Source: Sneathiella sp. P13V-1 (GTDB lineage: Bacteria; Pseudomonadota; Alphaproteobacteria; Sneathiellales; Sneathiellaceae). Taken from it: 64,000 bases of DNA. The DNA lies in NCBI RefSeq assembly GCF_015143595.1, contig NZ_WYEU01000004.1, positions 124,001-188,000 on the forward strand. The letters run 5' to 3'. The position numbers were made by a program, and so were the translations under genes. The notes beneath the pieces are model-generated. The model was given only the letters and a program-made list of their open reading frames with translations. It was not told the DNA's origin and ran no database searches. Of the stretch, positions 11,548-58,616 are shown in pieces. Every line of letters starts with the position of its first letter. The first letter of the stretch is position 1.

Positions 11548-12765
11548 TTAGGCAGCTTGCCTCAACCCCAATCGCTTCCAGACTTCCTTCAACGAAGATA
11601 CCAGATGATCCATCATCTGATCATCATGGAATGGGCTTGGTGTAATCCTTAAGCGTTCCTCGCCACGTGGCACGGTCGGGAAGTTAATTGGCTGGATGTA
11701 GATGCCATAGTCTTCCAAAAGCATGTCACTTGCCTGCTTGCATAGCGCGGCATCATATACCATCACAGGGACAATATGAGTGGGGGTTTGCAATACAGGC
11801 AGTCCCGCATCCATAAGAAGTTTTTTAAGGGTCGCAGCGCGTTCCTGATGGGATGCGCGCTCCATCTGGCTTTGTTTCAGGTGTCGGACACTTGCAAGGG
11901 CACCAGCCGCCACAGCAGGGGGTAGGGTCGTTGTGAAGATAAATCCAGAAGCGTAGGAGCGAATGGCATCTACAATGGCCTCAGAGGCGGTAATAAAGCC
12001 GCCTACAACACCAAATGCCTTACCTAAAGTCCCTTCCATGATATCAATGCGATCCATCAAGCCTTCGCGTTCAGCAATACCGCCGCCCCGTGGTCCATAA
12101 AGGCCTACTGCGTGAACTTCGTCCAGATATGTCATGGCGTTGTATTTATCGGCCAGATCACAAAACTCTTTCATCGGCGAGATGTCGCCGTCCATGGAAT
12201 AAACAGATTCGAACGCAATCACTTTCGGGCGATCAATATCAATCTGTTTGAGCTTTTCTTCCAAATCGGCAACATCGTTGTGCTTGAAGATAACTTTTTC
12301 ACATTTCGAATGACGCACCCCATCAATCATGGACGCATGATTAAGTTCATCAGAAAGGATCACCGCATTTGGAAGCAGCTTTCCCAATGTGCTGATTGTC
12401 GCGTCATTGGAGACAAAGCCTGACGTAAAGACAAGGGCACGTTCCTTGCCATGAAGATCTGCAAGTTCTCGCTCCAATTCGCAAATCATATGGGCGTTAC
12501 CGGAAATGTTACGCGTGCCGCCAGCACCTGCTCCAAATTCGTCAATGGCATCTTTCATGGCAGCCAGTACTTTTGGGTGCTGGCCCATACCAAGATAGTC
12601 GTTTGAGCACCAGATAGTGACTTCGGCAGTTCCATTTTCTGTATGGCGTGTTGCCCGTGGAAAATCTCCTGCGTGGCGCCCGAGCTCGGTAAAGACCCGA
12701 TAGCGTTTCTCAGATTTGAGATCAGCGATGGCCTTCTCGAACACCTCGTTATAGTTCACTGCCAT
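11548..12765 (-). CDS. hemA: 5-aminolevulinate synthase
   Basis: The protein has 405 residues, full length for the alphaproteobacterial enzyme. It condenses glycine and succinyl-CoA to 5-aminolevulinate, the first step of haem and corrin synthesis by the Shemin pathway. Signatures are [13 protein letters not shown], the glycine-rich [13 protein letters not shown], the PLP-contacting [13 protein letters not shown], and the Schiff-base Lys in [15 protein letters not shown] (about residue 247). The C-terminal part [20 protein letters not shown] is also typical. An AAGGAAA site precedes the ATG. The gene is monocistronic, with about 165 bp of AT-rich upstream DNA. Its presence is a main reason for placing the organism in the Alphaproteobacteria. 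Confidence 0.98.
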
Positions 12766-44256: not shown

Positions 44257-45894
44257 ATGAAAACAGGTGGTCAACTGATTGTAGAATGCCTTGAAGCGCA
44301 GGGTGTTGATCGGGTTTTTTGTGTGCCGGGTGAGAGTTATCTCGCTGTTTTGGATGCGTTGCATGACAGTGACATAGAAACGGTTGTTGCCAAGCAAGAA
44401 GGCGGGGCCGCCATGATGGCAGAAGCTGACGGCAAGCTGACGGGACGTCCCGGCATTTGCATGGTGACACGGGGGCCAGGTGCGACAAACGCAGCGTCAG
44501 GTATTCATGTGGCGAAGCAGGATAGCGTCCCGATGATCATGTTCGTGGGACAAATTGGCCGCCGCATGAAAGGACGTGAAGCCTTTCAGGAGGTGGATTA
44601 TCGGCAGACATTTGGTGATCTTGCCAAATGGGTCGAAGAAATTGACCATGCAGACCGTATCCCCGAAGTAATTTCTCACGCTTATCATGTAGCCATGAGT
44701 GGTCGCCCAGGTCCTGTGGTGATTGCATTGCCGGAAGATATGCTCCGCGATGTGGCAGATGTAGAACCCGCACCTTATATTGAAGTGGCAGATCCTGCTC
44801 CAACTGAAGAGGCTATTGCCGGTGTTGTTGATCTTTTGAAAGAGGCTAAAAACCCTTTCCTTCTTTTAGGGGGAACGCGTTGGACAGAAGAAGATGTCGC
44901 AACAGTGCACAAGTTTGCAGAAGATTGGGGTCTGCCGGTCGGTTGTTCGTTCCGCCGTCAGCAGTTGTTTGACCATACGCATCCCAATTATGCGGGCGAC
45001 GTAGGTCTGGGCATCAATCCCGCGTTGAAGAGCCGGTTGGAAAATAGTGATCTGGTTATCCTTCTCGGTGCCCGTTTCTCTGAAAACCCAAGTCAGGGTT
45101 TCTCTTCCTTTGATATTCCGGTGCCCAAGCAAAATATCGTGCAAATCCACAGTGGTGCAGAAGAGCTTGGTCGTATCTACCGGGCCAATGTTTCTATCAA
45201 TGCCACACCAGGTACTTTCCTGAATGCAATGATGAAAGAGGCAACGCCTGAGGGGCGTGCTGTTGACCCAACCGTTCATGAAGAATATCTGGCTTGGACA
45301 TCTAATCCACCTAAGATTCCTGGCGATGTCCAGATGGGTGAAGTTATGAAGCACTTGATAAAGGTGCTGCCTGAAGATGCGATTATGGCAAATGGGGCAG
45401 GGAACTATGCCATTTGGTTGCATCGTTTTTGGCCATTCCGGAGTTTTGGCAGTCAACTGGCACCAACCTCTGGCTCTATGGGCTACGGTTTGCCAGCCGC
45501 CGTTGCAGGTGGTTTGCGTTGCCCGGATAAAGAAGTTTTCTGTTTTGCGGGTGATGGGTGTTTCCAGATGACCATGCAGGAATTTGGAACCGCCATGCAA
45601 TATAGATCCAAAGTCATTGTGCTGCTGATCGATAATGGCATCTATGGTACCATTCGAATGCATCAGGAAAGGGAGTATCCTTCCCGAATTTCCGGTACGG
45701 ATATTCTAAACCCGGATTTTGCGGCGTTGGCAAAGGCCTATGGGGCTCACGCAGAAACTGTTGTCAAAACCGAAGAGTTTCCCGCTGCGTTGGAGCGGGC
45801 GCGGAATTCGAAATTTGCTGCACTTATCCATATCAAGATTGATCCAGAAGCGATTTCCCCAACGGCAACTATCTCAGGCTTGAGAGGGAAATAA
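44257..45894 (+). CDS. Thiamine diphosphate-binding enzyme, acetolactate synthase-like
   Basis: The protein has 545 residues. All three TPP-enzyme domains are present. The N-terminal part has the catalytic Glu in KQEGGAAMMAEADGKLTGRP (about 48-67) and CVPGESYLAVLDAL. A central domain follows at about 190-330. The C-terminal TPP-binding motif is GDGCFQMTMQEFGTAMQYRS with NGIYGTIRMHQ (about 430-470). Relatives include acetolactate synthase, glyoxylate carboligase and sulfoacetaldehyde acetyltransferase. No regulatory small subunit or ilvC lies nearby, so an anabolic IlvB role is less likely. GGAG precedes the ATG, and a terminator follows. Confidence 0.9.
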   Translation: MKTGGQLIVECLEAQGVDRVFCVPGESYLAVLDALHDSDIETVVAKQEGGAAMMAEADGKLTGRPGICMVTRGPGATNAASGIHVAKQDSVPMIMFVGQIGRRMKGREAFQEVDYRQTFGDLAKWVEEIDHADRIPEVISHAYHVAMSGRPGPVVIALPEDMLRDVADVEPAPYIEVADPAPTEEAIAGVVDLLKEAKNPFLLLGGTRWTEEDVATVHKFAEDWGLPVGCSFRRQQLFDHTHPNYAGDVGLGINPALKSRLENSDLVILLGARFSENPSQGFSSFDIPVPKQNIVQIHSGAEELGRIYRANVSINATPGTFLNAMMKEATPEGRAVDPTVHEEYLAWTSNPPKIPGDVQMGEVMKHLIKVLPEDAIMANGAGNYAIWLHRFWPFRSFGSQLAPTSGSMGYGLPAAVAGGLRCPDKEVFCFAGDGCFQMTMQEFGTAMQYRSKVIVLLIDNGIYGTIRMHQEREYPSRISGTDILNPDFAALAKAYGAHAETVVKTEEFPAALERARNSKFAALIHIKIDPEAISPTATISGLRGK

Positions 45895-45914
45895 TCCTTT
45901 GTAAATAACGTTCT

Positions 45915-45946
45915 AAACCCTCGTGCGAAAGTGCGAGGGTTTTTTT
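45915..45946 (+). terminator. Intrinsic terminator after the TPP enzyme gene
   Basis: ACCCTCG and CGAGGGT, extended by AA/TT pairs and a GAAA-type inner loop, form a stable stem followed by T7. Confidence 0.87.
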
Positions 45947-45961
45947 ATTGGCAAAACCGTA

Positions 45962-46000
45962 TTGACAGCGGCAAATAAACTTTCTAACGTTTGTTAGAAA
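45962..46000 (+). promoter_or_regulatory. Promoter with overlapping palindromic operator for the carboxylase operon
   Basis: TTGACA at 45962-45967 is a perfect -35. A -10-like TAACGT lies 17 bp further on at 45985-45990. The perfect inverted repeat TTTCTAAC-GTTT-GTTAGAAA (45981-46000) covers that -10, so a bound protein would block transcription. The regulator is not encoded next door. TetR- or MerR-type regulators of branched-chain catabolism are candidates. Confidence 0.6.
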
Positions 46001-46067
46001 CAAAAATAAATAACAGGGAGCGGTCAACTAAGTTTGACCCGTGATCGACCAAAATGGTGGAGCTGAT

Positions 46068-47666
46068 ATGGCAGTAATAGAGAGTAAAATCGATCCGCAC
46101 TCAGATCAATTTGCCCATAATGCTGGCGCATTTGAAGAGTTGTTGGACGCTTGGCGGGAGCGCATGAGTGAAGCGGTGGGCGGAGGTCGTGAAGCGCTAG
46201 TTGAGCGTCATCACAAACGAGGTAAAATTCTCGTCCGAGATCGTATCGACCGAGTTATTGATCCAGGAACAGCTTTTTTGGAACTCTCTCCACTGGCGGC
46301 TTTCGGGCAGTATGGAAACGAGGTCCCGTCCGCAGGAATTGTGACAGGTATCGGAATTGTCTCCGGTACTCCTTGTATGTTTATTGCCAATGATGCCACG
46401 GTTAAGGGGGGATCCTTCTTCCATGAGACGGTGAAAAAGCATATCCGTGCCCAGGAAATTGCCTCTAATCATCGTTTGCCATGTCTGTATTTGGTGGATT
46501 GCGGTGGGGCGTACCTGCCGGAGCAGGATCGGGTTTTTCCTGACAGGGACCATTTCGGAAACACTTTCTATCGTCAGTGCCAGATGTCAGCTGAAGGCAT
46601 CCCTCAGATCTCTGTTGTTTTCGGTGGTTGTACGGCGGGCGGCGCTTATATCCCTTCGCTTTCTGATCAGGTGATCATGGTGAAGGATAATGCCCGCATT
46701 CATCTTGGTGGGCCTTCCATTGTAAAGGTCGCGATTAACGAAGAGGTCGATGGTGAAACGCTGGGCGGTGCGGAAATGCACAGCACCGTTTCGGGTGTGA
46801 GTGATCATTTGGCGGAAAATGAAGAGGAGGCGCTTGCACGTCTTCGTGACATTGTCGCCAATTTGAATATGGAGCGTATTGCGCCGCCGTTGGGTGAGGC
46901 TTTGCCCCCAAGACATAGTCCGGAAGAGCTGACAGGCGTCATCAATAGTGATCGTAAAATCCCTTACGATGTGCGTGAAGTCATCGCACGCCTTGTTGAC
47001 GATAGTGATTATCAGGAGTTTAAGCCTGCCTGGGGAGAGAGTCTGGTTTGCGGGTTTGCGAAAATTCATGGTTATCCCATTGGTGTCATTGGAAATAATG
47101 GCGCGCTTTTTTCAGATAGTTCTATGAAAGGGGCCCAGTTTATTCAGCTGTGCGATCAAAGAAATATTCCAATCCTGTTTTTACATAACATTACAGGCTT
47201 CATGGTTGGATCCGAAGCAGAGCGTGGCGGCATCGCGAAAAACAGCGCGAAAATGGTCTATGCCATGTCGACCGTTAAGGTGCCGCGCCTGTCTGTGATT
47301 ATTGGCGGATCCTACGGGGCCGGGAATTATGGCATGTGTGGTCGTGGTTTCAGGCCGGACTTCATGTTCGCTTGGCCAAATGCAGAACTTGCAACCATGT
47401 CAGCGGATATTGCGTCCAACGTGATGCTGGAGCTTCGCAGAGGCAAGCTGGATGGTAGTGCCGCGGCGCAAGAAGAGCTGAACGCACTGGAAAAATCGGT
47501 GCGGGATCAGTATGGCCGACAGAGCGATCCCTATTACGCGACGTCCAGATTGTGGGATGATGGAATAATTGCGCCGTCGCAGACACGGGACATTATGGGG
47601 CTTTGCCTTTCAATCATTCAATCAACACCTAATGTTGATCAGTATTCACCAGTCTATCGGATGTAA
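46068..47666 (+). CDS. Acyl-CoA carboxylase carboxyltransferase subunit (methylcrotonyl-/geranyl-CoA type)
   Basis: About 532 residues of the carboxyltransferase family. Motifs: DRVIDPGTAFLELSPLAAFG, NDATVKGGSFFHETVKKHIR, LVDCGGAYLPEQDRVFPDRD, HFGNTFYRQCQMSAEGIPQI, FGGCTAGGAYIPSLSDQVIM, and NITGFMVGSEAERGGIAKNS. The PDRDHFG stretch is typical of the methylcrotonyl-CoA/geranyl-CoA group. It transfers CO2 from carboxybiotin to an enoyl-CoA. The ATG at 46068 has GGAG six bases upstream; the GTG at 46041 has none. The biotin-carboxylase gene follows after 9 bp. I cannot tell leucine (methylcrotonyl) from terpenoid (geranyl) use. Confidence 0.93.
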   Translation: MAVIESKIDPHSDQFAHNAGAFEELLDAWRERMSEAVGGGREALVERHHKRGKILVRDRIDRVIDPGTAFLELSPLAAFGQYGNEVPSAGIVTGIGIVSGTPCMFIANDATVKGGSFFHETVKKHIRAQEIASNHRLPCLYLVDCGGAYLPEQDRVFPDRDHFGNTFYRQCQMSAEGIPQISVVFGGCTAGGAYIPSLSDQVIMVKDNARIHLGGPSIVKVAINEEVDGETLGGAEMHSTVSGVSDHLAENEEEALARLRDIVANLNMERIAPPLGEALPPRHSPEELTGVINSDRKIPYDVREVIARLVDDSDYQEFKPAWGESLVCGFAKIHGYPIGVIGNNGALFSDSSMKGAQFIQLCDQRNIPILFLHNITGFMVGSEAERGGIAKNSAKMVYAMSTVKVPRLSVIIGGSYGAGNYGMCGRGFRPDFMFAWPNAELATMSADIASNVMLELRRGKLDGSAAAQEELNALEKSVRDQYGRQSDPYYATSRLWDDGIIAPSQTRDIMGLCLSIIQSTPNVDQYSPVYRM

Positions 47667-47675
47667 GGGGGCGAT

Positions 47676-49688
47676 ATGTTTTTTGAAAGTGTATTAATCG
47701 CCAACCGCGCCGAAATTGCCTTACGCCTTATCCGGGCGGTTCAGTCATTGGGATTGGAGGCGATTGCCGTCTATTCGGAAGCGGATAAGAATGCCCCTCA
47801 TGTGAAGGCTGCAGACAAGTCGGTCCAATTGGGGAGAGGGGAAACCTCAGACAGTTACCTAAATATGGAAAAAATCCTTGATGCCGCAAATAGGAGCGGT
47901 GCAGGTGCCATACATCCGGGATATGGCTTCTTTTCTGAAAATGCGAATTTTGCCAAATCCTGTGAACAGGCTGGAATTGTCTTTATCGGACCGAAAGCGG
48001 AAATCATCGCTGATATGGGCTCTAAAATCGCAGCCAAAGAAAGAGCAATTGTTGCTGGGGTGCCCGTCGTCCCCGGGTATCAAGGCGGTGAACAGGATGA
48101 TGATCTTCTGATTGCTCATGCCGAGGAGATTGGTTTCCCACTCCTTGTCAAAGCTAGTGCTGGCGGCGGTGGGCGCGGGATGCGTGTCGTGAATGAAGCA
48201 GGAGAGCTGGCGGAACAGATTTCTCTCGCACGTCAGGAAGCAGCCGCAGCTTTTGGCGACCCTTCATTGTTGCTTGAAAAATATGTGCAAAAAGCACGTC
48301 ACATAGAAGTTCAGGTTTTGGGAGACAATCATGGCAACGTCATTCATTTGCTTGAGCGCGATTGTTCCATCCAGCGGAACCATCAGAAACTGATCGAGGA
48401 AGCGCCAGCTGCAGATTTCCCGTCTGACGTTCGGGAGAGGATGTTGACCTCTGCCGCTGAACTTGCAAAATCAATAGGCTATAACAGCGCTGGAACTGTG
48501 GAATATATTTATGATCCTGAAACCCAGGATTTTTATTTCCTGGAAATGAACACTCGCCTTCAGGTGGAGCATCCAGTTACCGAAGCCATTACCGGTATCG
48601 ATTTGGCCCAGTGGCAAATTCGGATTGCCAATGGTGAAGAGCTCTCTATTACTCAGGAAGAAATCAAATCTGACGGATGGGCGATAGAAGCGCGTGTTGC
48701 GGCAGAAAACCCAGAAGAGGGATACCTGCCGCAAACTGGATTGGTGCATACCTATCTAGAGCCATCAGGTATCGGCGTGCGTATTGATAGTGGTATTTCA
48801 GAAGGTGTCGCTGTTTCTCATTACTATGACAGTATGCTCTCTAAAGTAATCGTGCATGGTCGAAACAGGGATGATGCAATTGCGAAACTAAGCAGAGCAT
48901 TAAGTCAGTACCGGATTGCAGGTGTAGGGACAAATATCACTTTCCTTTCTTCAATTTTGAAATCGGAAGAGTTCGTAAAATCAAACCATTATACATCATT
49001 CTTAAAAGATAAGTTTGAAGGAAGCTGGCAAGGTGTGAAAGTAAGTGATGAGGTGCGACTGATCGCGTGCCTTGGTAATCATCTTTCCAACACACGGAAA
49101 AATACTGGTTCAGTATGGGGACGTCTTGAAGGATGGCGCGTGACCAAGCCTGCAGGCCGAAATCCCGTGAGCTATTACTTTGTTGTTGAGGAAGGAAGCG
49201 CTCCTAAAAGGCTCGAGATTACCGAAACTGATAGCAGTTACTGTCTGAAAATGGGAGATGAAGCACAGTCTGAATTGATCCTCATATCTTTGGACGCATC
49301 ATCGATTACAGTTGATAGCGACGGCATGAATATCACTTATCCTTTGAGGCATAATGATGGGCTGACAACTGTTTTTGAAGGGGCGCTTTCTACGTCAGTT
49401 AAACTCCTGTCGCCGGAAGAGGTGCTTCTGGGTATCCAAGGGGACATTGGCAGCGGCGGGAATACCGTGCAATCCCCCATGCCGGGATTGATTGTGGAAA
49501 TACTGGTTAAGCCTGGTGATGCAGTTAAAAAAGGCGATACGGTTATCGTTCTGGAAGCGATGAAACTGATGCAAAAGCTCACCGCATCTACGGACGGTAC
49601 CATTTCTGAAATTTATTGTCATGAGGGTGACACACCTGAAAAAGGCTCGCTGCTCGTTACTATCGAACCTGATAAACCTGAAGAATAA
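47676..49688 (+). CDS. Biotin carboxylase/biotin carrier subunit of acyl-CoA carboxylase
   Basis: The protein has 670 residues. The biotin carboxylase part (about 1-450) has KASAGGGGRGMRVVNEAGEL (ATP-grasp), HIEVQVLGDNHGNVIHLLER, RDCSIQRNHQKLIEEAPA and FLEMNTRLQVEHPVTEAITG. A linker leads to the C-terminal carrier domain (about 595-668) with PMPGLIVEILVKPGDAVKKG and the biotinylation site EAMKLMQ. It carboxylates its own biotin with ATP and bicarbonate. It works with the carboxyltransferase encoded 9 bp upstream, and the acyl-CoA dehydrogenase gene starts 14 bp downstream. Biotin transport genes follow in the same direction. Confidence 0.95.
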   Translation: MFFESVLIANRAEIALRLIRAVQSLGLEAIAVYSEADKNAPHVKAADKSVQLGRGETSDSYLNMEKILDAANRSGAGAIHPGYGFFSENANFAKSCEQAGIVFIGPKAEIIADMGSKIAAKERAIVAGVPVVPGYQGGEQDDDLLIAHAEEIGFPLLVKASAGGGGRGMRVVNEAGELAEQISLARQEAAAAFGDPSLLLEKYVQKARHIEVQVLGDNHGNVIHLLERDCSIQRNHQKLIEEAPAADFPSDVRERMLTSAAELAKSIGYNSAGTVEYIYDPETQDFYFLEMNTRLQVEHPVTEAITGIDLAQWQIRIANGEELSITQEEIKSDGWAIEARVAAENPEEGYLPQTGLVHTYLEPSGIGVRIDSGISEGVAVSHYYDSMLSKVIVHGRNRDDAIAKLSRALSQYRIAGVGTNITFLSSILKSEEFVKSNHYTSFLKDKFEGSWQGVKVSDEVRLIACLGNHLSNTRKNTGSVWGRLEGWRVTKPAGRNPVSYYFVVEEGSAPKRLEITETDSSYCLKMGDEAQSELILISLDASSITVDSDGMNITYPLRHNDGLTTVFEGALSTSVKLLSPEEVLLGIQGDIGSGGNTVQSPMPGLIVEILVKPGDAVKKGDTVIVLEAMKLMQKLTASTDGTISEIYCHEGDTPEKGSLLVTIEPDKPEE

Positions 49689-49702
49689 GCTGAGAAAATA
49701 AC

Positions 49703-50848
49703 ATGGAAAAAAGTATCTATTTTAGTGAAGAGCACCACATGCTGCGGGAGCAAATCGCGCGCTTTGTGCAGGAAAAAGTGATGCCAAACGGCGACCTTTG
49801 GGAAGCCGATGGAATGGTGCCGCGTAATGTTCTAAAGGAAATGGGGGATCTCGGCTTCTTCGGTATTCAGTATTCTTCGGAATATGGTGGGGCGGAGATG
49901 AGCGTTCTGGGTTCTGTTGTCTTGGCGGAGGAGCTTGCAAAATCCACTTATGGCGGTTTTGCTGTCACGGCTTTGGTTCATACCGACATGGCGTCACCAC
50001 ATCTTTATAATGCAGGTAACTCAGATCAGCTGTCTGAATATATGCCAGATATTATTGCAGGTGATAAAATCACAGCGGTTGCAGTGACGGAGCCAGATGC
50101 AGGATCAGATGTTGCGGGTATGAAAACACGCGCTGTTCAGGATGGCGACTATTGGGTACTGAACGGCAGTAAAATGTTCATTACGAATGGTGTGCATGGC
50201 GATCTGTATTTCGTGGCGGCGAAGACAGACACGTCTGCAAAAGGGTCACGCGGGGTGACGATTTTCATTGTTGAGAAAGGTACCGAAGGTTTCAGCGTCG
50301 GGCGTAAACTCAACAAAATGGGCTGGCTTTCCTCTGATACCGCTGAGCTCGTGTTTGAAGATGTCAGAATACACAAAGACTACATTCTGGGTGAAGTGAA
50401 TAAAGGTTTCTACGCCATTATGAAAAACTTCCAGAATGAGCGGACAGTCCTTGGGGCACAGGCCATGGGGGAAGCTGACAAGGCGCTTGAGCTGACACTG
50501 GATTATGTGAAAAACCGTAAAGCCTTTGGTCAAACTTTGTGGGATAAGCAAGCTATTCGCCAGCGCCTCTCGAAACTTCAAGCTGAAGTCGCGGCTGGTA
50601 AGCAACTTTTATATCATTCTGCGTGGCTTGATAGCTTGGGGCAGGACTGTGTGAAAGAGGTATCCATGGTGAAGGCTTACTGCGGTGAACTTGTAAATCG
50701 CGTGATGTATGAGTGTCAGCAGTTCCATGGTGGTTTTGGGTATATGCGTGAAGCCCCCATTGAACGTATGGTTCGTGATGCCCGTATTCAGTCTATCGGT
50801 GGTGGCGCAACTGAGGTCATGCTGGAAGAAATCGCTAAGCGTTCATAA
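49703..50848 (+). CDS. Acyl-CoA dehydrogenase
   Basis: The protein has 381 residues, full length. Motifs: MGDLGFFGIQYSSEYGGAEM, VTEPDAGSDVAGMKTRAVQD (FAD and substrate), LNGSKMFITNGVHGDLYFVA, RTVLGAQAMGEADKALELTL, and the C-terminal QFHGGFGYMREAPIERMVRD, then IQSIGGGATEVMLEEIA. It oxidises an acyl-CoA to the enoyl-CoA and passes electrons to ETF. It is the third gene of the carboxylase operon, so it may make the enoyl-CoA that the carboxylase uses (isovaleryl- or citronellyl-CoA are the classic examples). The other liu/atu genes are absent from the window. Confidence 0.93.
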   Translation: MEKSIYFSEEHHMLREQIARFVQEKVMPNGDLWEADGMVPRNVLKEMGDLGFFGIQYSSEYGGAEMSVLGSVVLAEELAKSTYGGFAVTALVHTDMASPHLYNAGNSDQLSEYMPDIIAGDKITAVAVTEPDAGSDVAGMKTRAVQDGDYWVLNGSKMFITNGVHGDLYFVAAKTDTSAKGSRGVTIFIVEKGTEGFSVGRKLNKMGWLSSDTAELVFEDVRIHKDYILGEVNKGFYAIMKNFQNERTVLGAQAMGEADKALELTLDYVKNRKAFGQTLWDKQAIRQRLSKLQAEVAAGKQLLYHSAWLDSLGQDCVKEVSMVKAYCGELVNRVMYECQQFHGGFGYMREAPIERMVRDARIQSIGGGATEVMLEEIAKRS

Positions 50849-51024
50849 GGAAGGGGTTTTATGCGCGGAAAACGATTTACCAGCCAAAAACTGTAGTTTT
50901 CTGCGGATCTTTGGTCTTTTAATCTGAATGGGTCTTCTATATTAAAGGCTGGACAATTAGGGGAGCTGCTTTTAAAAGCTAAACCTAACGACTGTTTTGT
51001 AAATATGTGGAAGACCTTTTCGAT

Positions 51025-51573
51025 ATGACGATCAAGGATATTGTATTTATTGCCCTATTTGCGGCTTTAACTGCGGCTCTTTCTATTGTTCCCCCGGTTA
51101 ATGTTCCGGTGATCAATGTTCCAATTACGGCGCAGACATTTGGTGTAATGCTTGCCGGTGGTGTGCTTGGTGCGCGCCGTGGTGCTCTTTCTATGATTTT
51201 GTTCCTGGCTTTGGTGGCGGTTGGTCTCCCATTCCTGTCCGGTGGTCGTGGTGGCGCCGGTGTCTTCATGGGTGCAAGTGGTGGTTTCCTTATTGGTTGG
51301 GTAATTGCAGCCTTTGTCATTGGTTACATGGTCGAAAGATCATGGGAGAAACTGAACTTCGTAACCGCCATGACGAGCAGTGTCGTTGGTGGTATCTTAA
51401 TCCTTTACGCGATCGGTATTCCGTGGATTGCTGTAGTTGCAGGTATTTCCATTGATAAAGCGGCTCTTTCTGCAATTGCCTATGTTCCAGGTGATTTGGT
51501 GAAAGCAGGTCTGGCCTCTATCATTATGATTCAGGTGAAACGCGCTTACCCGCTGATTTCTGTTAAAGCCTAA
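51025..51573 (+). CDS. bioY: Biotin transporter substrate-binding component BioY
   Basis: About 182 residues, with six hydrophobic segments. BioY signatures are VNVPVINVPITAQTFGVMLA (biotin-binding region), GARRGALSMILFLALVAVGL and PFLSGGRGGAGVFMGASGGF, and the later YVPGDLVKAGLASIIMIQV. It binds biotin in the membrane as the S component of an ECF transporter. The ATG at 51025 gives the usual N-terminus; a GTG at 51007 is possible. bioM starts 22 bp downstream. There is a 176-bp gap from the acyl-CoA dehydrogenase and no terminator in it, so it may be in the same transcript. I see no BioR-type site. Confidence 0.95.
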   Translation: MTIKDIVFIALFAALTAALSIVPPVNVPVINVPITAQTFGVMLAGGVLGARRGALSMILFLALVAVGLPFLSGGRGGAGVFMGASGGFLIGWVIAAFVIGYMVERSWEKLNFVTAMTSSVVGGILILYAIGIPWIAVVAGISIDKAALSAIAYVPGDLVKAGLASIIMIQVKRAYPLISVKA

Positions 51574-51595
51574 GTGCTTTTAAAGGCGGCCTTCA

Positions 51596-52276
51596 ATGAT
51601 TTCATTAAAGTCGGTAAAGGTTGCCTTCGAAGGGCGGACTGTCCTTGAAGATATTAATCTGGACATCAACGAAAAACGTGTTGGTGTCATCGGGTGGAAT
51701 GGGTCGGGCAAAAGTACTTTTGCCCGGCTTTTAAATGGCCTGCAAACGCCGACCGCTGGCTCAGTCACCATTGACGGTGCCGATACCGCAAAAGCGGGCG
51801 GGCATGTCCGGCGAAAAGTCGGTTTTGTGTTTCAGAACCCAGATAATCAGATTGTATATCCCGTCGTCGAAGAGGACCTGGAGTTTGGTCTCAGAAACCT
51901 CAATATTTCCAAAGAAGAGCGAAAGCGCCGTATTGACGAGATTTTTCAGCAATACGGACTTGATCATCTTCGCAGCAGAATGACCCACCGTTTAAGCGGA
52001 GGTGAAAAACAGATGATCGCCTTGATGGGGGTATTGGTCATGCATCCGGAAATTATTGTGCTGGATGAGCCGACAACACTTTTGGATCTGAAGAATAAAC
52101 ATAACCTTTTATCCGTTTTGCATGAGCTGCCTCAGCAGATCGTTATGGTAACTCATGACCTTGAATTGCTGAGTGATTTTGATCGTGTTCTGTTTTTTCA
52201 TGATGGGAAGCTTTATGCGGATGGCGAACCTGAAGAAGTTATCGCAACCTACAGAAAAGTGAGTGGCGTATGCTGA
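51596..52276 (+). CDS. bioM: Biotin transporter ATP-binding subunit BioM
   Basis: The protein has 226 residues of the CbiO/ECF ATPase type. Walker A is GWNGSGKSTFARLL, the Q-loop is VFQNPDNQIV, the signature is HRLSGGEKQMIALM, Walker B is IIVLDEPTTLLDL, and the switch is VTHDLELLS. It drives BioYMN uptake with ATP. Its end overlaps the bioN start by 7 bp. ECF modules of this kind are dedicated when, as here, a single S-component gene sits beside the A and T genes. Confidence 0.96.
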   Translation: MISLKSVKVAFEGRTVLEDINLDINEKRVGVIGWNGSGKSTFARLLNGLQTPTAGSVTIDGADTAKAGGHVRRKVGFVFQNPDNQIVYPVVEEDLEFGLRNLNISKEERKRRIDEIFQQYGLDHLRSRMTHRLSGGEKQMIALMGVLVMHPEIIVLDEPTTLLDLKNKHNLLSVLHELPQQIVMVTHDLELLSDFDRVLFFHDGKLYADGEPEEVIATYRKVSGVC

Positions 52277-52875
52277 CACTTTATGTAGCTGGGGATACCT
52301 GGGTCCACAGATTGCCTGCTGGATTTAAGATCCTGACCCTACTCGCCGCGGGTACGGCGCTGTTTCTGGTTCAGCGTCTGGATATCATGTTAGGCGCGTT
52401 TGGCGTAACAGTGCTTCTCTACATTTTCGCAGGGATCCCATTTGCAAAGTTTAAAGATCAGATAAAGCCGCTGATATGGATTATGGTACTGATATTTATC
52501 GTGCAAATCCTCATCGCGGATATCTGGGCGGCTTTGTTTATTGTGGCGCGTTTCAGTTCTTTGATCCTGTTTGCATCTTTGGTGACGTTGACCACCAGAA
52601 GCGAGCAGATGATTGATGTCATTGAATGGGCGCTGCATCCTTTCAAAAAGTGGATCCCCGTTCATAAGATCAGCCTCGCCATTTCTCTCACCTTGCGTTT
52701 TGTTCCCCTGCTTCGGGACGTTACGGCAGAGGTGCGAGAAGCACAGCGGGCAAGGGGGATGTCTCGCAATTTGATTGCGACCATTACACCTGTCATAATC
52801 CGAACCTTGAAAACGGCTGATGAAGTGGCCGAGGCCATCGAAGCGCGCTCATTTGGTCAAGATGAAAGACGATAG
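52270..52875 (+). CDS. bioN: Biotin transporter transmembrane (T) component BioN
   Basis: The protein has 201 residues. The N-terminal membrane segments include ILTLLAAGTALFLVQRLDIM and LIWIMVLIFIVQILIADIWA. The conserved ECF coupling region has LAISLTLRFVPLLRDVTAEV and EAQRARGMSR (the A-R-G coupling motif), with VAEAIEARSFGQDERR at the end. It links BioM to BioY. It overlaps bioM by 7 bp, and the next gene starts 2 bp after its stop, so the nitroreductase/ligase fusion is probably co-translated. Confidence 0.95.
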   Translation: MLTLYVAGDTWVHRLPAGFKILTLLAAGTALFLVQRLDIMLGAFGVTVLLYIFAGIPFAKFKDQIKPLIWIMVLIFIVQILIADIWAALFIVARFSSLILFASLVTLTTRSEQMIDVIEWALHPFKKWIPVHKISLAISLTLRFVPLLRDVTAEVREAQRARGMSRNLIATITPVIIRTLKTADEVAEAIEARSFGQDERR

Positions 52876-52877
52876 GT

Positions 52878-54980
52878 ATGGAAAAGCAGCAGGCTGGTAA
52901 AATCTGGTCGCAATTGAAAACGCTTTTTCAAGAACGTCATTCCGTTCGTGCTTTTCTGAATAAACCAGTTCCAGAAAATCTCTTGGCTGAGATCTTCGAA
53001 AATGCAGCCAGATCACCAAGTGGCGGCAATTTGCAGCCTTGGCAGGTGTATGCCGTATCCGGCGCGCTTAAAGACAGGCTGGGCGCCGCAATTCAGCAGG
53101 CTTATTGGGACAAAGGGCACACCTCTCCGGATGAATATTCCTATTATCCTGAAACGTGGGTTGAACCCTATATAACGCGGCGGAGTGAAGCCGCACAGCA
53201 ACTATTTGGCGCACTCGGTCTAGGGGCGCGGGATGTTAAAGAAAAACGGGTACAGCAAGCCAAGAATTATGATTTTTTCGGCGCACCTGTCGGCTTGATC
53301 TTTGTGATGGATCGGGATCTGTCACAAGGGAGCTGGCTGGATATGGGGATGTATATAAACTCCGTGTCAATGCTTGCAAACGCGGCAGGATTAGGCACTT
53401 GCCTACAGGCCAGTTTTATCTCCTACCCTGAGGTGATCCGGCAAGTTCTTGAAATACCGGAAGATCAGATCATTCTGTGTGGCATGGCAATTGGGTATGA
53501 GGATACAAGCCAAGCCGTGAATGACTTTAAAACGGACCGGAAAAGCATTTTTGAGACGGTTGTTGAGAAAAACAGTTCATTGCAGGATCTGGGGGCGCGG
53601 TTTCTTGGAAATGGTCACATTTTCAAAAATAGGACGGCTTTAAAAATTGGCGAAACATCTGTTTCCTGGGCTGAGTTTGCCAAAAAAATTGATGAGCAGG
53701 CAAGCCTGATTTCTTCCAAATATGCGGGGAAAAATGAGCTGCCTTTGCTTTTGGGAAATTCACTGGATTTTGCCGTTCTTTTTACCGCGGGGCAGGTGGC
53801 AGGTAAAAATGTACAGGTTCTTGATCCAGCTTGGCCACAAAACTGGATAGATGACGTGGCTACCGGAAGCCGTATATGCACTGAACTTCTGCCCACTAAT
53901 CAATCCGATCGGAAGACACATAACGACAGTATAGATGTTGAACAACCTTTCTATACTGGCTTCACCTCTGGCAGTACTGGGCGGCCAAAAGGCTTTGTGA
54001 GAAGCCAGAAATCTTGGCTTGAAAGTTTCGAGATTGACAGGGTCGAGTTTGGCATGACGCCACATGACATTGTGGCCTCAATCGGGAACTTCTCTCATTC
54101 ACTACCTCTTTATGCCATGGTGCGCGCGTTGTATGAGGGGGCGACTTCAATTTGTTTCCCATCGTTTCATCCAGCTAAAGTTCTGCAGGAATTAGAAGCT
54201 GAGCAGGTCACAATACTGTATGCCGTTCCGACCCAATTGGATGCTTTGTGCCGTGCGGCGAGCGGGCAGGAAAATCTTGAACACGTGAAATGGGTTTTGT
54301 CTTCTGGGGCAAAATGCAGTGAAGAGCTGTATCGGAAGTTGAGGCAGTTGTTTCCAAATGCGGAGCTGGCTGAATTTTATGGAAGTTCAGAACTGAGTTT
54401 TATCTCAGTTGCGAAGAAAAACGAGAACATTCCAGACGCTTCGGTTGGCCGTGTTTTACCAATGGTCAATCTTCAGATTAGGGACGCCAACGATAAAGTC
54501 TGTCCGGCCGGTGAAATCGGGCGGGTCCATGTGCAAAGCCCTTTGCAGTTTCTTGGGTATTTGGGGCATTCCTTTATTAATCGTGAGGATGGTTTGTACA
54601 CGGGGGATACCGGTTATGTGGATGAAACGGGGTGTTTGTATCTAACCGGCCGATTTGATCGCATGTTAAATGTGAAAGGGCGCAACATCTTCCCCGAAAT
54701 GATCGAGCAGTGTCTTATTAAAATGAAGGGGGTGGCCTCTGCTGCGGTTTTTGGGATTGATGATCCAAAGCGTGGACAGGACATTGTGGCGGTCGTTGAG
54801 ACAACATCTGAGATCACTTTTAAAGAGGTGAGGGAGGCCTGCCGTCAGTATCTTCCCGATTATGCACTCCCAAGAAGGGTATACCGCACAGATGCCTGGC
54901 CGATGACCAGTTCAGGGAAAACAAACTTTCCGCTGCTGAAAAGTCAGTTAAGTGCGGGTGAGTTGGAGCGGTTAATATGA
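52878..54980 (+). CDS. Nitroreductase / AMP-forming acyl ligase fusion protein
   Basis: The protein has 700 residues with two catalytic domains. Residues about 15-225 form an FMN nitroreductase fold (RHSVRAFLNKPVPENLLAEI; AARSPSGGNLQPWQVYAV; GLGTCLQASFISYPEVIRQV). Residues about 245-700 form an adenylate-forming ligase: P-loop TSGSTGRPKG at 363-372, YGSSE at 501-505, TGDTGYVDETG from 575, GRFDRMLNVKGRNIFP near 591-606, and the catalytic Lys681 in TSSGKTN. The ligase part is short in its N-terminal half. It would activate a carboxylic acid and oxidise or reduce the linked product. It starts 2 bp after bioN and ends overlapping the thiolase gene (ATGA). The substrate is unknown; a biotin-related acid is my guess from context. 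Confidence 0.9.
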   Translation: MEKQQAGKIWSQLKTLFQERHSVRAFLNKPVPENLLAEIFENAARSPSGGNLQPWQVYAVSGALKDRLGAAIQQAYWDKGHTSPDEYSYYPETWVEPYITRRSEAAQQLFGALGLGARDVKEKRVQQAKNYDFFGAPVGLIFVMDRDLSQGSWLDMGMYINSVSMLANAAGLGTCLQASFISYPEVIRQVLEIPEDQIILCGMAIGYEDTSQAVNDFKTDRKSIFETVVEKNSSLQDLGARFLGNGHIFKNRTALKIGETSVSWAEFAKKIDEQASLISSKYAGKNELPLLLGNSLDFAVLFTAGQVAGKNVQVLDPAWPQNWIDDVATGSRICTELLPTNQSDRKTHNDSIDVEQPFYTGFTSGSTGRPKGFVRSQKSWLESFEIDRVEFGMTPHDIVASIGNFSHSLPLYAMVRALYEGATSICFPSFHPAKVLQELEAEQVTILYAVPTQLDALCRAASGQENLEHVKWVLSSGAKCSEELYRKLRQLFPNAELAEFYGSSELSFISVAKKNENIPDASVGRVLPMVNLQIRDANDKVCPAGEIGRVHVQSPLQFLGYLGHSFINREDGLYTGDTGYVDETGCLYLTGRFDRMLNVKGRNIFPEMIEQCLIKMKGVASAAVFGIDDPKRGQDIVAVVETTSEITFKEVREACRQYLPDYALPRRVYRTDAWPMTSSGKTNFPLLKSQLSAGELERLI

Positions 54981-56116
54981 AGCACTGTTACGTTGTTGCT
55001 GCAAAGCGTACCGCTGTTGTCCCTCGTGGTGGTGCCTTCAATCATTTGCAAGCGGATGAACTGGCTGCGCCGGTGATAAGTGCTCTGCTGGAAGAGTTGC
55101 CTGAAGCTGGTGGTCATGTTGACCAGATTATTATGGGGAACGCTTTGTACGGCGGGGGCAATCCCGCTCGGCTGGCTGCTTTAAGGGCGGGGATACCTGA
55201 AGGCGTTCCAGCTCTCACGCTTGACACGCAATGCTGCGCTGGGATGGATGCTGTCCGTCTGGGCGCAAATTTTATTCGAACAGGAGAGGCTAGGGCCGCA
55301 ATAGTTGGGGGACTTGAAAGTTATTCACGCTCCCCCATCAGATCGAAGCGTCCGATGAATAAGGATGACAAAGCTGAACCCTATCTTCGCCCTCCTTTTA
55401 CCCCTTGGGCAGAACGGGATCCTGATATGGTGGCTTCTGCAGGTGATTTGTCAGCAGAATTGAACTGCTCAAGAGAAGACCAAGAAAAGTATGCTCAAAG
55501 AAGTCACGAGAAATCGTTGGCGTCACAAGGTTTTATTTTAAAGCAGATTGTACCGGTTGAGGGCGTCACATCCGACAAATTCACCAGAAGACTGTCACCG
55601 TCCCTCCTTAAGAAGTTACCTGTTGTCTATGGCAAAGAACCTTATGAGCTCACATCAGCGACTATCGCGGTGGAAGCAGATGCAGCCGCGGCTCTTTTGT
55701 TGGTTAGTGAAGATGTTTTCGAGAAGCTGGGGGGAGCCGGGTGCCTAATCGAGCACTCTGTCAGTGTCGGAACGGATCCCGCAAAACCCGCACTATCTCC
55801 CCTAAATGCTATTCAGACTTGTATTAAGAAGGCTGATATCGAACTTTCAGATATCGCTTTATTTGAAATGATGGAGGCTTTTGCGCTGCAAGGGGTCTTG
55901 CTTGAGAGATTTTTAGGTGAACAAGCCTCTCATAAACTCAACAAATGGGGGGGAGCATTGAGTAGGGGGCATCCCATTGGCGCATCTGGCGCTATCAATT
56001 TAGTGCATATGTTTCACCAACTAGTTGATATGCCAAAGGGAGCGCGAGGTCTCGCTTCTATTGCGGCTGCAGGCGGGCTTGGTAGTGCTCTAATGTTGAA
56101 GGCATTCGGCAAGTGA
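54977..56116 (+). CDS. Thiolase family protein with altered active site
   Basis: The protein has 379 residues and the full thiolase fold. The nucleophilic Cys86 is in TLDTQCCAGMDAV, and His332 is in GGALSRGHPIGASGA. Two usual active-site residues are missing: the Asn of NEAF is Met299 (MMEAFALQ), and the second Cys of the C-x-GGG loop is Ala363 (IAAAGGLGSAL). The protein may therefore do acyl transfer or decarboxylating chemistry rather than ordinary thiolysis, or act as a binding partner. It overlaps the fusion gene by 4 bp. It is the last gene of the bioY-bioM-bioN run, followed by an AT-rich gap. Confidence 0.88.
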   Translation: MKHCYVVAAKRTAVVPRGGAFNHLQADELAAPVISALLEELPEAGGHVDQIIMGNALYGGGNPARLAALRAGIPEGVPALTLDTQCCAGMDAVRLGANFIRTGEARAAIVGGLESYSRSPIRSKRPMNKDDKAEPYLRPPFTPWAERDPDMVASAGDLSAELNCSREDQEKYAQRSHEKSLASQGFILKQIVPVEGVTSDKFTRRLSPSLLKKLPVVYGKEPYELTSATIAVEADAAAALLLVSEDVFEKLGGAGCLIEHSVSVGTDPAKPALSPLNAIQTCIKKADIELSDIALFEMMEAFALQGVLLERFLGEQASHKLNKWGGALSRGHPIGASGAINLVHMFHQLVDMPKGARGLASIAAAGGLGSALMLKAFGK

Positions 56117-56381
56117 TTCGAAAAATGTGTGAAAAAATAGTCAAATAGTATTAAATATTTAGTTTCGAATATTGAGTTCTTGTATGCCTAATAATTAGTC
56201 ATATGTGCTAAATATTTGTGCAATATTTCCATAAACTAATACTAAATTAGTAATTGAAATGACGCCAAATGACTTTATCCTTAATGTTAAGGTCTTGTAA
56301 ACTTGGCGGGCGCACTCTTTTTCTAACGTTAGGAATCTGAACCTTGGAAGATTTGTTCAGAAGTACCGTTAGGTGATGAGT

Positions 56382-58616
56382 ATGGCTAATTTCTTTAAAC
56401 TACGAATTTCACAAAAACTCCCTCTTCTTGTTTTGGCTGCGTCCCTTTTCCTCGGGTTGGGTATGGGAATTACGGGCTATATTCAAGGGTCCAATTCCTT
56501 GGATAAGGCAACAGAAGAAAAACTTCTGGTAACCGTTCAAGAGAGAAAATCTTCTCTGGAAAGCTATTTGAAAAACATTCAGGAAGATTTGTATATCATC
56601 TCAAGAAGCTCAAATGTTGTGGATGCGATCACTAAATTTAATGGTGCATGGAGCCAGTTAGGTAAAGATCAGACTGCGTATCTTCAGAAGAAATACATTG
56701 AGGAAAATGAATATCCTTTGGGCCAAAAGGAAAAACTGGATTTTGCTTCAGATGGATCGATTTACAGTTTCACTCATAAAGTATTCCACCCCTGGTTCAG
56801 AGATATTCAGCAAACACGTGAGTTTTACGATATCTTCCTCTTCAACAGTAAAGGGGATCTTATCTACAGCGTCTTTAAAGAAAATGATTACGCGACAAAT
56901 TTTGTGAGCGGGAAGTGGAAAGACAGTGGGTTAGGCGCAGTTTACCGGGAGGCTATGGCCAATCCAGAAGTTGGATTTGTTGCCTTTCAGGATTTTGCCC
57001 CTTATGCGCCCAGTAATGATGCGCCTGCCAGCTTTATTGCAACACCAGTTTTTAGAGGTGATCAGGCAATCGGTGTGATTGCCTATCAGATGTCAATTTC
57101 GCGTCTAAATGCTTTGATGAATGACGCAACTGGTCTTGGGGAAACTGGTGAAGCCTACATTGTCGGCACCGATAACCTCATGCGTAGTGACAGTCGTTTT
57201 TCAGATGAGAGTACGATTTTGAAACGCGAGATCAAAACCGAAGCTGCATCAGCTGCTTTAAGTGGGAAGTCAGGCGCGCTAAAGGGTATTGATTATAGAG
57301 GCGAGCGAGTGAAGTCTGTATATAATTATATTGATTTCCTTGGTGTTCGCTGGGCTGTTATTGCTGAGATTGATCAAGCAGAGTTTTTCGCACCAATTTC
57401 TTCGATGCGTAATAACATGCTGATGATTGGCTTAGGTCTATTGGTTCTTGTATGCGCGGTCGGATACTTGTTCTCCCGTCAAATCGCAAATAAGCTGATT
57501 GAGATCACCCAAGCGATGATGCAACTTTCAGATGGTAATCTGGATGTTGAAGTGCCAGCACAAGATACCGGTGATGAAGTTGGCGATATGGCTCAATCAC
57601 TTCAGGTGTTTAAAGATAATGCGATTGAGCAGAAGCGTCTGGAAGCGGAAGCTAAAGAAGCAGAAGCGGCGGCTGCTGAACGTGAACGTATAGAACGTGA
57701 AAGAGAGCAAGAACGCCTTGAAAAAGAACGTGAGCGTGAACGTCTTGAGGCAGAAGAGAAGGCCGCGCGCGCAGAGAGAATTACTGCGATTATCAAAGAA
57801 TTTGAAAGTCGTATCTCATCCATTATGGAAACATTGACTGGATCAGCAAATCAGTTGCAGGTTACAGCCAATGACCTTGTAGCAACGGCTGATGGAACCC
57901 GTAATCTGTCAGGTGATGTATCTGTCGCCTCGCAAGAAGCCTCTTCAAATGTTCAGACTGTGGCTTCTGCAGCAGAAGAACTGTCAGCTTCAATTGGTGA
58001 AATATCACGTCAGGTAACACAGGCAACTGATGTCTCTGAAGAAGCTGTCTCTGAAGCTGAAAGTACAACTACTTCGGTTGGAGATTTGGCTAATGCTGCC
58101 AAGAAAATCAGTGAAGTTGTTGAAATGATCAGTGACATTGCTGGGCAGACAAATCTACTCGCTTTAAACGCTACGATTGAAGCGGCTCGGGCTGGTGATG
58201 CAGGTAAAGGTTTTGCCGTAGTGGCATCAGAGGTGAAAAGTCTGGCGACGCAAACTGCACGGGCAACTGAGGAAATCGCTCAGCAAATCGATGGAATGCA
58301 AAATGCAACTAATGGCGCAGTTGAGGCCATTAGTAAGATCGGAGATGTGATCCGTACCATTCGTGAGGCCACTGTTGGGATTTCCTCAGCTGTGAATGAG
58401 CAGAATGCAGCAACGACTGAAATTTCCAGAAGTGTGCAAGAAGCGTCGAATGGTACCTCTCAAGTAAACGCCAAAATTAGCGAGGTTTCAGAGAAGTCTG
58501 AAGAAACCGGTCAGGCGGCGAATAATGTACTGTCTGCATCAGAGGCTTTGGAAAGTCTGTCTAAAGACCTGAATGGCGTAATTGATAGCTTCCTGAACGA
58601 TATCAGAGCTGCTTAG
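56382..58616 (+). CDS. Methyl-accepting chemotaxis protein with Cache sensor domain
   Basis: About 744 residues. Membrane helix 1 (about 10-32; [19 protein letters not shown]), a periplasmic double-Cache sensor (about 40-345), membrane helix 2 ([20 protein letters not shown]), HAMP (about 365-420), a long charged coiled coil rich in Glu/Arg, and the signalling domain with the tip [20 protein letters not shown] then [17 protein letters not shown]. It senses an external small molecule, probably an amino or organic acid. The ATG at 56382 has AGGTGA upstream; the GTG at 56373 is less likely. The gene has its own terminator. Confidence 0.94.

Follow-up and report, generated by a model that had tools for sequence, protein, structure and literature searches.

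The closest described relatives of the genes considered here belong to the biotin regulon of the Firmicutes, in which the importer component BioY is tied to the ligase YhfT and the thiolase-like protein YhfS. The available sections of two reports have BirA and biotin repressing both bioY and yhfS–yhfT in Staphylococcus aureus (PMC6391492, PMC7235819), and a review, in the part available, gives this repression for Bacillus subtilis as well as S. aureus (PMC11089781); no agreed role for YhfT or YhfS in biotin metabolism was found in the parts of the literature that were searched. A second set of relatives, the alphaproteobacterial BioMNY importers, includes the plasmid-borne bioMNY2 operon of Paracoccus denitrificans, which has no BioR site according to the accessible text of PMC4554459. 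Here we describe an operon of Sneathiella sp. P13V-1 (contig NZ_WYEU01000004.1, positions 124,001 to 188,000 of the forward strand; this whole stretch of 64,000 nucleotides is referred to as the window) in which the same importer genes are joined to a nitroreductase–ligase fusion and a thiolase-fold gene. This differs from the BioMNY systems, as the accessible text of PMC4554459 makes no mention of acyl-coenzyme A (acyl-CoA), AMP-binding, thiolase or nitroreductase, and in the openly licensed literature, as far as its text was available, nothing was found linking a nitroreductase or an alphaproteobacterial ligase–thiolase pair to bioY.

The operon lies on the + strand and its five genes are separated by exactly 22, -7, 2 and -4 bp. 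A preliminary description, made from the sequence alone, had recognised this as one tight operon of five co-directional genes including a 700-residue fusion, and the coordinates and Pfam assignments bear it out. The first gene, bioY (51007..51573), encodes the biotin-binding S component of an energy-coupling factor (ECF) importer (Pfam BioY 130.3 bits, cut-off 25); it starts with GTG at 51007, with an alternative in-frame ATG at 51025 that was the start used in the preliminary description, and it is the single BioY match in its genome. It is followed by bioM (51596..52276), an ECF-type ATPase (Pfam ABC_tran 104.9 bits) whose top NCBIfam model, ECF_ATPase_1, scores 226.6 bits, under the cut-off of 315, and by bioN (52270..52875), the ECF T component (Pfam CbiQ 66.4 bits, cut-off 25). 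With BioY, an ATPase and a T component in one operon, bioYMN has the composition of a biotin ECF importer. The fusion gene (52878..54980, 700 aa) matches Pfam Nitroreductase, AMP-binding and AMP-binding_C, each over cut-off, with the nitroreductase domain (103.4 bits) at residues ~1–233 (52878..53577) and a YhfT-like, AMP (adenosine monophosphate)-forming acyl ligase domain at residues ~255–700 (53640..54980). The last gene (54977..56116) encodes a YhfS-like thiolase-fold protein of 379 aa with Pfam Thiolase_N and Thiolase_C over cut-off.

The window operon and the BirA regulons share the same three kinds of gene tied to biotin, and the ligase and thiolase are related to those of the Firmicutes at some distance. 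The top NCBIfam model for the ligase is PRK07638 (NF005797), which we take to be the YhfT family, and PRK06690 (NF005212), presumably the YhfS family, is the second model for the thiolase after a general acetyl-CoA C-acyltransferase subfamily (271.4 bits, cut-off 240.55); the window proteins nevertheless fall far under both family cut-offs (329.4 bits against 518 and 222.5 bits against 498, respectively). The corresponding proteins of Fictibacillus, which also follow bioY, pass both (555.1 bits against 518 and 511.7 bits against 498 for locus L149) and group with the window proteins. In a quick-method tree 26 module-type ligases, including two from Fictibacillus, formed one branch apart from 26 other ligases (Shimodaira–Hasegawa-like approximate likelihood-ratio support 99), and 24 module thiolases, including those of Fictibacillus and Ramlibacter, were separated from 15 paralogues from Sneathiella, Bradyrhizobium and Fictibacillus with support of 100/98 in a tree with no fixed root (the rows of both trees were picked from sequences fetched by our scans). 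The window operon differs from the BirA regulons in having its own bioM and bioN, in the fusion of the nitroreductase to the ligase, in a thiolase that has also lost Asn316, and in that no BirA repressor domain was found over cut-off. The core ligase and thiolase are therefore kin of YhfT and YhfS, whose genes are known in Bacillus and Staphylococcus to be co-regulated with bioY. The earlier suggestion of a wholly new system does not hold, as YhfT, YhfS and BioY are established members of one Firmicutes regulon. Several features look new: the occurrence of the module in Alphaproteobacteria; its association in several lineages with a nitroreductase, which five Sneathiella-type genomes encode as a fusion with the ligase; the MaoC-like gene found in 23 of the 80 loci surveyed below, in one as a fusion with the thiolase; and a thiolase that lacks its second catalytic cysteine.

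The distribution of the module was surveyed by scanning named genomes with two peptide patterns taken from an alignment of seven ligases (those of the window, of five more genomes from its order and of G118, a distant alphaproteobacterium). These matched 211 stretches, 174 of which encode a relative of the ligase, and the best 80, chosen on ligase similarity alone, were retained (L099 and L138 stem from one plasmid; the pattern pair limits the loci that could be found, the starts of open reading frames are mechanical and labels follow the best match). Within 6 kb of the ligase, bioY occurs in 71 of the 80 loci, bioM and bioN in 70 each and a thiolase gene in 71, with all four accompanying the ligase in 61; in 65 loci bioY, on the same strand, comes before the ligase homology and ends at most 450 bp from it. 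The coupling of biotin uptake to an acid-activating ligase and a thiolase-fold protein, as first proposed from the window, is thus real and widely conserved, rather than peculiar to this strain or a by-product of genes found mainly beside unrelated transporters. The link between bioY and the ligase is present in Alphaproteobacteria, in a metagenome-assembled genome of Ramlibacter and in Fictibacillus, and this recurrence of bioY partners in other families and in the Bacillota is more than chance. The nine loci without bioY are L082, whose contig starts inside bioM, L083, L084, L091, L119, L121, L129, L135 and L158, and the nine without a thiolase gene are seven from Ancylobacter, L150 and L158; the Ancylobacter loci retain bioMNY with the ligase, which makes the ligase the core partner.

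The arrangement of the genes varies between these and other loci. Separate, adjacent nitroreductase, ligase and thiolase genes are found away from bioYMN in two genomes of the order (G005 and G006), and Azospirillum sp. B510, reached through its ligase, has bioMNY, ligase and thiolase with no nitroreductase nearby. On pSymB of Sinorhizobium meliloti, bioM, bioN and bioY are followed by an unlisted ligase frame of ~395 codons, a thiolase, an opposite-strand thioesterase and an alcohol dehydrogenase, and Rhizobium leguminosarum has a thioesterase, ligase and thiolase with no bioY in the 5 kb shown. Three other Sneathiella loci carry a different acyl ligase directly upstream of a divergent BioY (L071 7021–9333, L077 5693–8008 and L078 7415–9728), near which bioM and bioN were not found; this ligase has 25–28% identity to the window ligase and falls in a separate tree group, and we take these loci to show that an AMP-forming ligase has become paired with BioY a second time, independently.

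The thiolase-fold protein of the module has an altered active site. Its AlphaFold model has a mean predicted local distance difference test score (pLDDT) of 96.1, and the 50 solved thiolases listed match it over 366–378 residues (Z 53.1–54.2, root-mean-square deviation 2.0–2.4), with N316 and H348 mutants among the PDB titles. The Zoogloea ramigera biosynthetic thiolase (PDB 1m4s and relatives) shares the whole fold (Z ~54), 32% identity, the nucleophilic cysteine and the histidine of the GHP motif. In that enzyme Cys378 serves as acid/base and Asn316 and His348 act on the enolate (the site numbers used here follow what we take to be the Zoogloea numbering). The window protein keeps the nucleophile (C86) and the GHP histidine (H332), but it has alanine (A363) in place of Cys378 and methionine (M299) in place of Asn316, and the same residue placement was obtained when it was aligned to two solved thiolases. 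These losses are general: among 73 aligned module thiolases the second catalytic cysteine is absent in all 71 with data (67 Ala, 3 Gly and 1 Pro) and the asparagine of the NEAF motif is replaced by methionine in 68 and kept in three, while C86 and H332 are invariant across 50. Both Cys378 and Asn316 are present in all 15 paralogues, and in nine plasmid thiolases the cysteine site is always alanine or glycine, with NEAF kept in three (Azospirillum, R. leguminosarum and S. meliloti). The Zoogloea His156 site, which is Asp150 in the window protein, carries no weight, since histidine is found there in just 4/15 paralogues. The preliminary description was right to call this thiolase unusual, and the module protein is probably not an ordinary thiolase; it may instead act as an acyltransferase. 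Plain shortening or lengthening of a chain by this enzyme, as was first suggested, is doubtful, as some residues required in an ordinary thiolase are missing.

The N-terminal domain of the fusion is sequence kin to flavin mononucleotide (FMN) nitroreductases (PDB 3gr3 E 1e-57, 7dp0 E 2e-38 and NfnB 2wzv E 2e-26), from which it is set apart by its fusion to an acyl ligase and by the link with biotin import. An AlphaFold model of the fusion (pLDDT 89.5, predicted template modelling score 0.64) is matched by ANL ligases from about residue 230 (Z 38.0–40.8); these fold matches span the ligase part, and the nitroreductase is assigned from Pfam and the PDB sequence matches. The fused form occurs in five genomes (the window, G018, whose locus is L080, G002, G011, whose locus is L081, and L082), and within the order full-length fusions with open frames are found in the window's own genome (G000, with a stated completeness of 100%), G018, G002 and G011. 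A separate nitroreductase gene accompanies the module in Salipiger, Alloyangia, Thioclava and three Paracoccus loci, and in Salipiger abyssi a plasmid has ligase, thiolase, ATPase, EcfT, BioY and nitroreductase in one row. Annotation and tblastn place a nitroreductase beside the cluster on plasmids of Alloyangia, Paracoccus yeei, P. aminovorans, Thioclava and Paracoccus sp. SMMA_5 (the last two were reached through bioY matches; Salipiger, Alloyangia, P. yeei and P. aminovorans through thiolase matches). Nitroreductases near that of the window are also found on plasmids of Azospirillum brasilense, Haematobacter and Pseudoroseomonas, where they are not beside bioY. Several Sneathiella assemblies (L008, L010, L012, L030 and L031) also carry, close to contig ends, tandem pairs of nitroreductase paralogues with 31–41% identity to the domain in the fusion.

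Further acyl-processing genes join the module in places. A MaoC-like frame lies within 3.5 kb in 23 of the 80 loci and was confirmed by Pfam in each of the three tested (L113, L130 and L149). In L130, from Microvirga tunisiensis, the thiolase and MaoC domains share one open frame, and in Fictibacillus (L149 and L155) the order is bioY, ligase and thiolase, with the MaoC gene ~370 bp further on. These MaoC-like genes, together with the annotated thioesterases of the S. meliloti and R. leguminosarum loci, are consistent with acyl-thioester chemistry. A DAO-like frame was found at the same distance of up to 3.5 kb in 4/80 loci, and in two loci with the fusion a gene for an FAD (flavin adenine dinucleotide)-dependent, DAO-type oxidoreductase follows the thiolase (L066 8996–10111, the one examined with Pfam, and L082 4438–5280).

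The genomes that carry the module are divided as to whether bioB is over cut-off. The absence of biotin synthesis genes noted for the window extends, for two of them, to its own genome, in which neither bioB (best match 35.8 bits, cut-off 225) nor bioF (375.6 and 346.7 bits, cut-off 426.45) is found over cut-off; the second bioF match, at window positions 11548–12765, is by eye a 5-aminolevulinate synthase. From the 80 loci, 50 were entered for a search of carriers and 47 genomes were searched (not all are Alphaproteobacteria, and completeness is not stated), with bioB over cut-off in 18 and not in 29. Five of the 25 genomes examined from the order have bioB over cut-off, among them just one of its six carriers, G011. 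The bioA family test is uninformative because 0/25 genomes pass, including the five with bioB. Both of the Fictibacillus carriers searched have bioB, and bioF is over cut-off in the one tested.

Our tentative interpretation, which we place first while holding it to be quite possibly wrong, is that the ligase, the thiolase-fold protein and their occasional partners are an accessory module of BioYMN that activates an imported biotin-like acid and processes its side chain. BioYMN would import a vitamer, either biotin itself or an acid resembling it, whose carboxylate the ligase would adenylate to give an acyl-AMP or a thioester, and the thiolase-fold protein, having kept its nucleophilic cysteine and one histidine and lost the usual Claisen and retro-Claisen residues, would accept the acyl group on Cys86 and then transfer or modify it. 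Where they are present, MaoC could provide hydration or dehydration, the flavin nitroreductase could reduce a double bond, and a thioesterase could release the acid, with the outcome that a side chain might be repaired or rebuilt, and biotin that is damaged or has lost part of its chain (bisnorbiotin, for example) salvaged. In favour of this are the overlapping or near-abutting genes of the operon and the presence of bioY in most loci picked by ligase; the additional MaoC, nitroreductase and thioesterase genes and the unrelated ligase that other Sneathiella have next to a divergent BioY; and the carriers without bioB over cut-off, which show that the module can do without a biotin pathway. The repression of the S. 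aureus pair by biotin, in the available parts of PMC6391492 and PMC7235819, is also what might be expected of salvage. A stronger form of this reading is rather unlikely in our view: that cells which do not make biotin import side-chain-damaged or shortened biotin and restore it with the ligase, a Cys–His acyltransferase or a new kind of condensing enzyme, a MaoC dehydratase and an enoyl-reducing nitroreductase. If salvage were true, presumed strict biotin auxotrophs may be able to live on other vitamers.

A number of observations weigh against side-chain processing. We infer the substrate of every module member, as well as the order and direction of the steps and the outcome, and the altered thiolase cannot readily be expected to carry out the carbon–carbon step that rebuilding a chain would need. 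The nitroreductase (within 6 kb of the ligase in 8/80 loci) and MaoC are each present in a minority of loci, and in a quick tree of 32 rows the module nitroreductases split into two groups, one of Sneathiella with L090 and L150 (weak base, 72) and one of Rhodobacterales with Saccharospirillum (99). Within the order BioY is found in 23/25 genomes and a ligase of the module kind in 6/25 (the other 19 have no ligase match better than E 2.5e-36, and some of the 25 are incomplete), and among ten plasmid bioY neighbourhoods, hand-picked from 54 records and assessed by annotation and tblastn (L231 is cut short), three have a ligase and thiolase, two of these with a nitroreductase, and seven have none. 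As many BioY loci are without the module, the importer therefore often stands alone and the module is an accessory to it. We had expected an excess of biotin auxotrophs among carriers and this was rejected, as the 18/47 carriers with bioB do not differ from an evenly drawn set of Alphaproteobacteria in which it is over cut-off in 132/385 (Fisher p 0.63); the module therefore neither needs nor excludes biotin synthesis.

Work on YhfT, a relative of the ligase, also points to lipids. According to the part of a review that was available, YhfT of B. subtilis produces acyl-adenylates and no CoA thioesters and serves surfactin lipids (PMC10988940); it may load acyl carrier protein (ACP), and in the accessible accounts surfactin falls by 38–55% in single mutants of each of four ligase genes, including yhfT (PMC10988940, PMC7960918). 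The biochemistry and surfactin data favour a lipid role, and a response to biotin shortage along these lines is possible, if somewhat doubtful: with acetyl-CoA carboxylase short of its cofactor, the cell would take up biotin while the ligase charged ACP or CoA with free fatty acids and the thiolase-fold protein acted as an acyltransferase, sparing malonyl-CoA. Such a response would work with or without bioB, would suit the joint BirA repression of yhfT–yhfS and bioY in Firmicutes reported in the accessible sources, and would suit the position of the present operon behind genes for an acyl-CoA dehydrogenase and a biotin-dependent carboxylase. However, 13 further acyl ligase matches in the Sneathiella genome (E 1e-15) make a dedicated ligase beside bioY seem unneeded, and control by biotin is unproven in Alphaproteobacteria. 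The BirA repressor domain (TIGR00122) is over cut-off in 0/25 genomes of the order, though control genomes pass in just 2/14, and a BioR box, searched for with what we take to be its consensus, was found ahead of bioM in 1/65 stretches (in a few of which bioY and not bioM is the first gene) and nowhere in the window, which in this resembles bioMNY2. We rank the processing of a biotin-like acid first and the lipid response second because of the adjacency of bioY, the additional MaoC, nitroreductase and thioesterase genes and the second pairing of a ligase with BioY.

It is also conceivable, but improbable, that the module serves an unrelated acyl metabolite and that the genes are coupled only as all are needed at once, with biotin supplied to a neighbouring carboxylase. 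This would explain why bioYMN comes after acyl-CoA carboxylase or acyl-CoA dehydrogenase genes in the window, L064, L070, L074 and L075, and why the ligase–thiolase pair of G005, G006 and, over the 5 kb covered, R. leguminosarum is away from bioY, but carboxylase-like frames (>45 bits) are found in only three of the 80 loci and acyl-CoA dehydrogenase-like frames in four, against 71 with bioY. The preliminary description had raised the uptake of a pimelate-like precursor, and a supply of pimeloyl thioester for biotin synthesis, made by the ligase and thiolase from imported or longer dicarboxylic acids, would fit the bioB and bioF of Fictibacillus and the place of YhfT and YhfS in the regulons of biotin-making Firmicutes (in the available literature), but we consider it very improbable because 29/47 of the carriers searched, as well as the window's own genome, lack bioB over cut-off, the latter lacks bioF also, and BioY is an importer of biotin. 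Equally remote is a start to β-oxidation of the biotin side chain, for food or to remove an excess, for which ligase, MaoC and thiolase-fold protein are the enzyme kinds needed, given that a biotin importer is part of the operon, frequently in cells where bioB is not found over cut-off, that the thiolase has no Cys378, and that the available reports show the S. aureus pair to be repressed and not induced by biotin. Returning to the processing of an imported biotin-like acid, the recurrence of these partners next to biotin importers across many bacteria suggests an unstudied step in the cellular use or repair of imported biotin. The breadth of the BioY link in the alphaproteobacterial forms, its independence of biotin synthesis, the joining of a nitroreductase and a MaoC-like protein in several lineages and the catalytic change in the thiolase narrow the question to assays on a few purified proteins and to work in laboratory strains (S. 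meliloti, B. subtilis 168 and P. denitrificans).

A candidate promoter for the operon, TGGACA and TAAAAG separated by 17 bp, was read by eye at 50950..50978 on the + strand. The heptamer CTGGACA is found upstream of bioY in 6/8 aligned Sneathiella loci (the window, L065, L069, L070, L073 and L075), in most of which a TAAAAC-like hexamer follows 17–18 bp past it, and we read this element as a sigma-70-type promoter rather than an operator. More widely, CTGGACA lies within 600 bp in 13/107 bioY or bioM loci, compared with a background of 3.2% of random stretches, and the combination with the hexamer was seen in two further loci only outside Sneathiella. A promoter scan did not list the 50950–50978 site, and promoter-like sites in 50800–56500 were no more frequent than in shuffled sequence (6 vs 6.7); terminator-like sites there exceeded shuffles (13 vs 6.6), with 12/13 of them intragenic. 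Rfam gave no match in 45000–58000.

The region ahead of bioY (window positions 44257–50848) contains a thiamine-pyrophosphate-enzyme-like frame, a carboxyltransferase, a biotin carboxylase with a biotin domain and an acyl-CoA dehydrogenase, and these last three genes, in part or in full, lie ahead of bioYMN in L064, L070, L074 and L075 too. We listed 40 neighbour families around the 80 loci, among them LysR-like (23 loci) and enoyl-CoA-hydratase-like (8 loci) proteins, and many of the others looked by eye to reflect shared chromosome order among Ancylobacter or Bradyrhizobium relatives. On the plasmids, bioMNY of Rhodobacter capsulatus comes after a malonate transporter, decarboxylase-type genes and a small biotin/lipoyl protein (L236 1–5297), and in Roseovarius (L231 4058–6250) and Dinoroseobacter (L232 4058–6841) a recombinase and a 933-bp hypothetical gene precede bioY and its ATPase.

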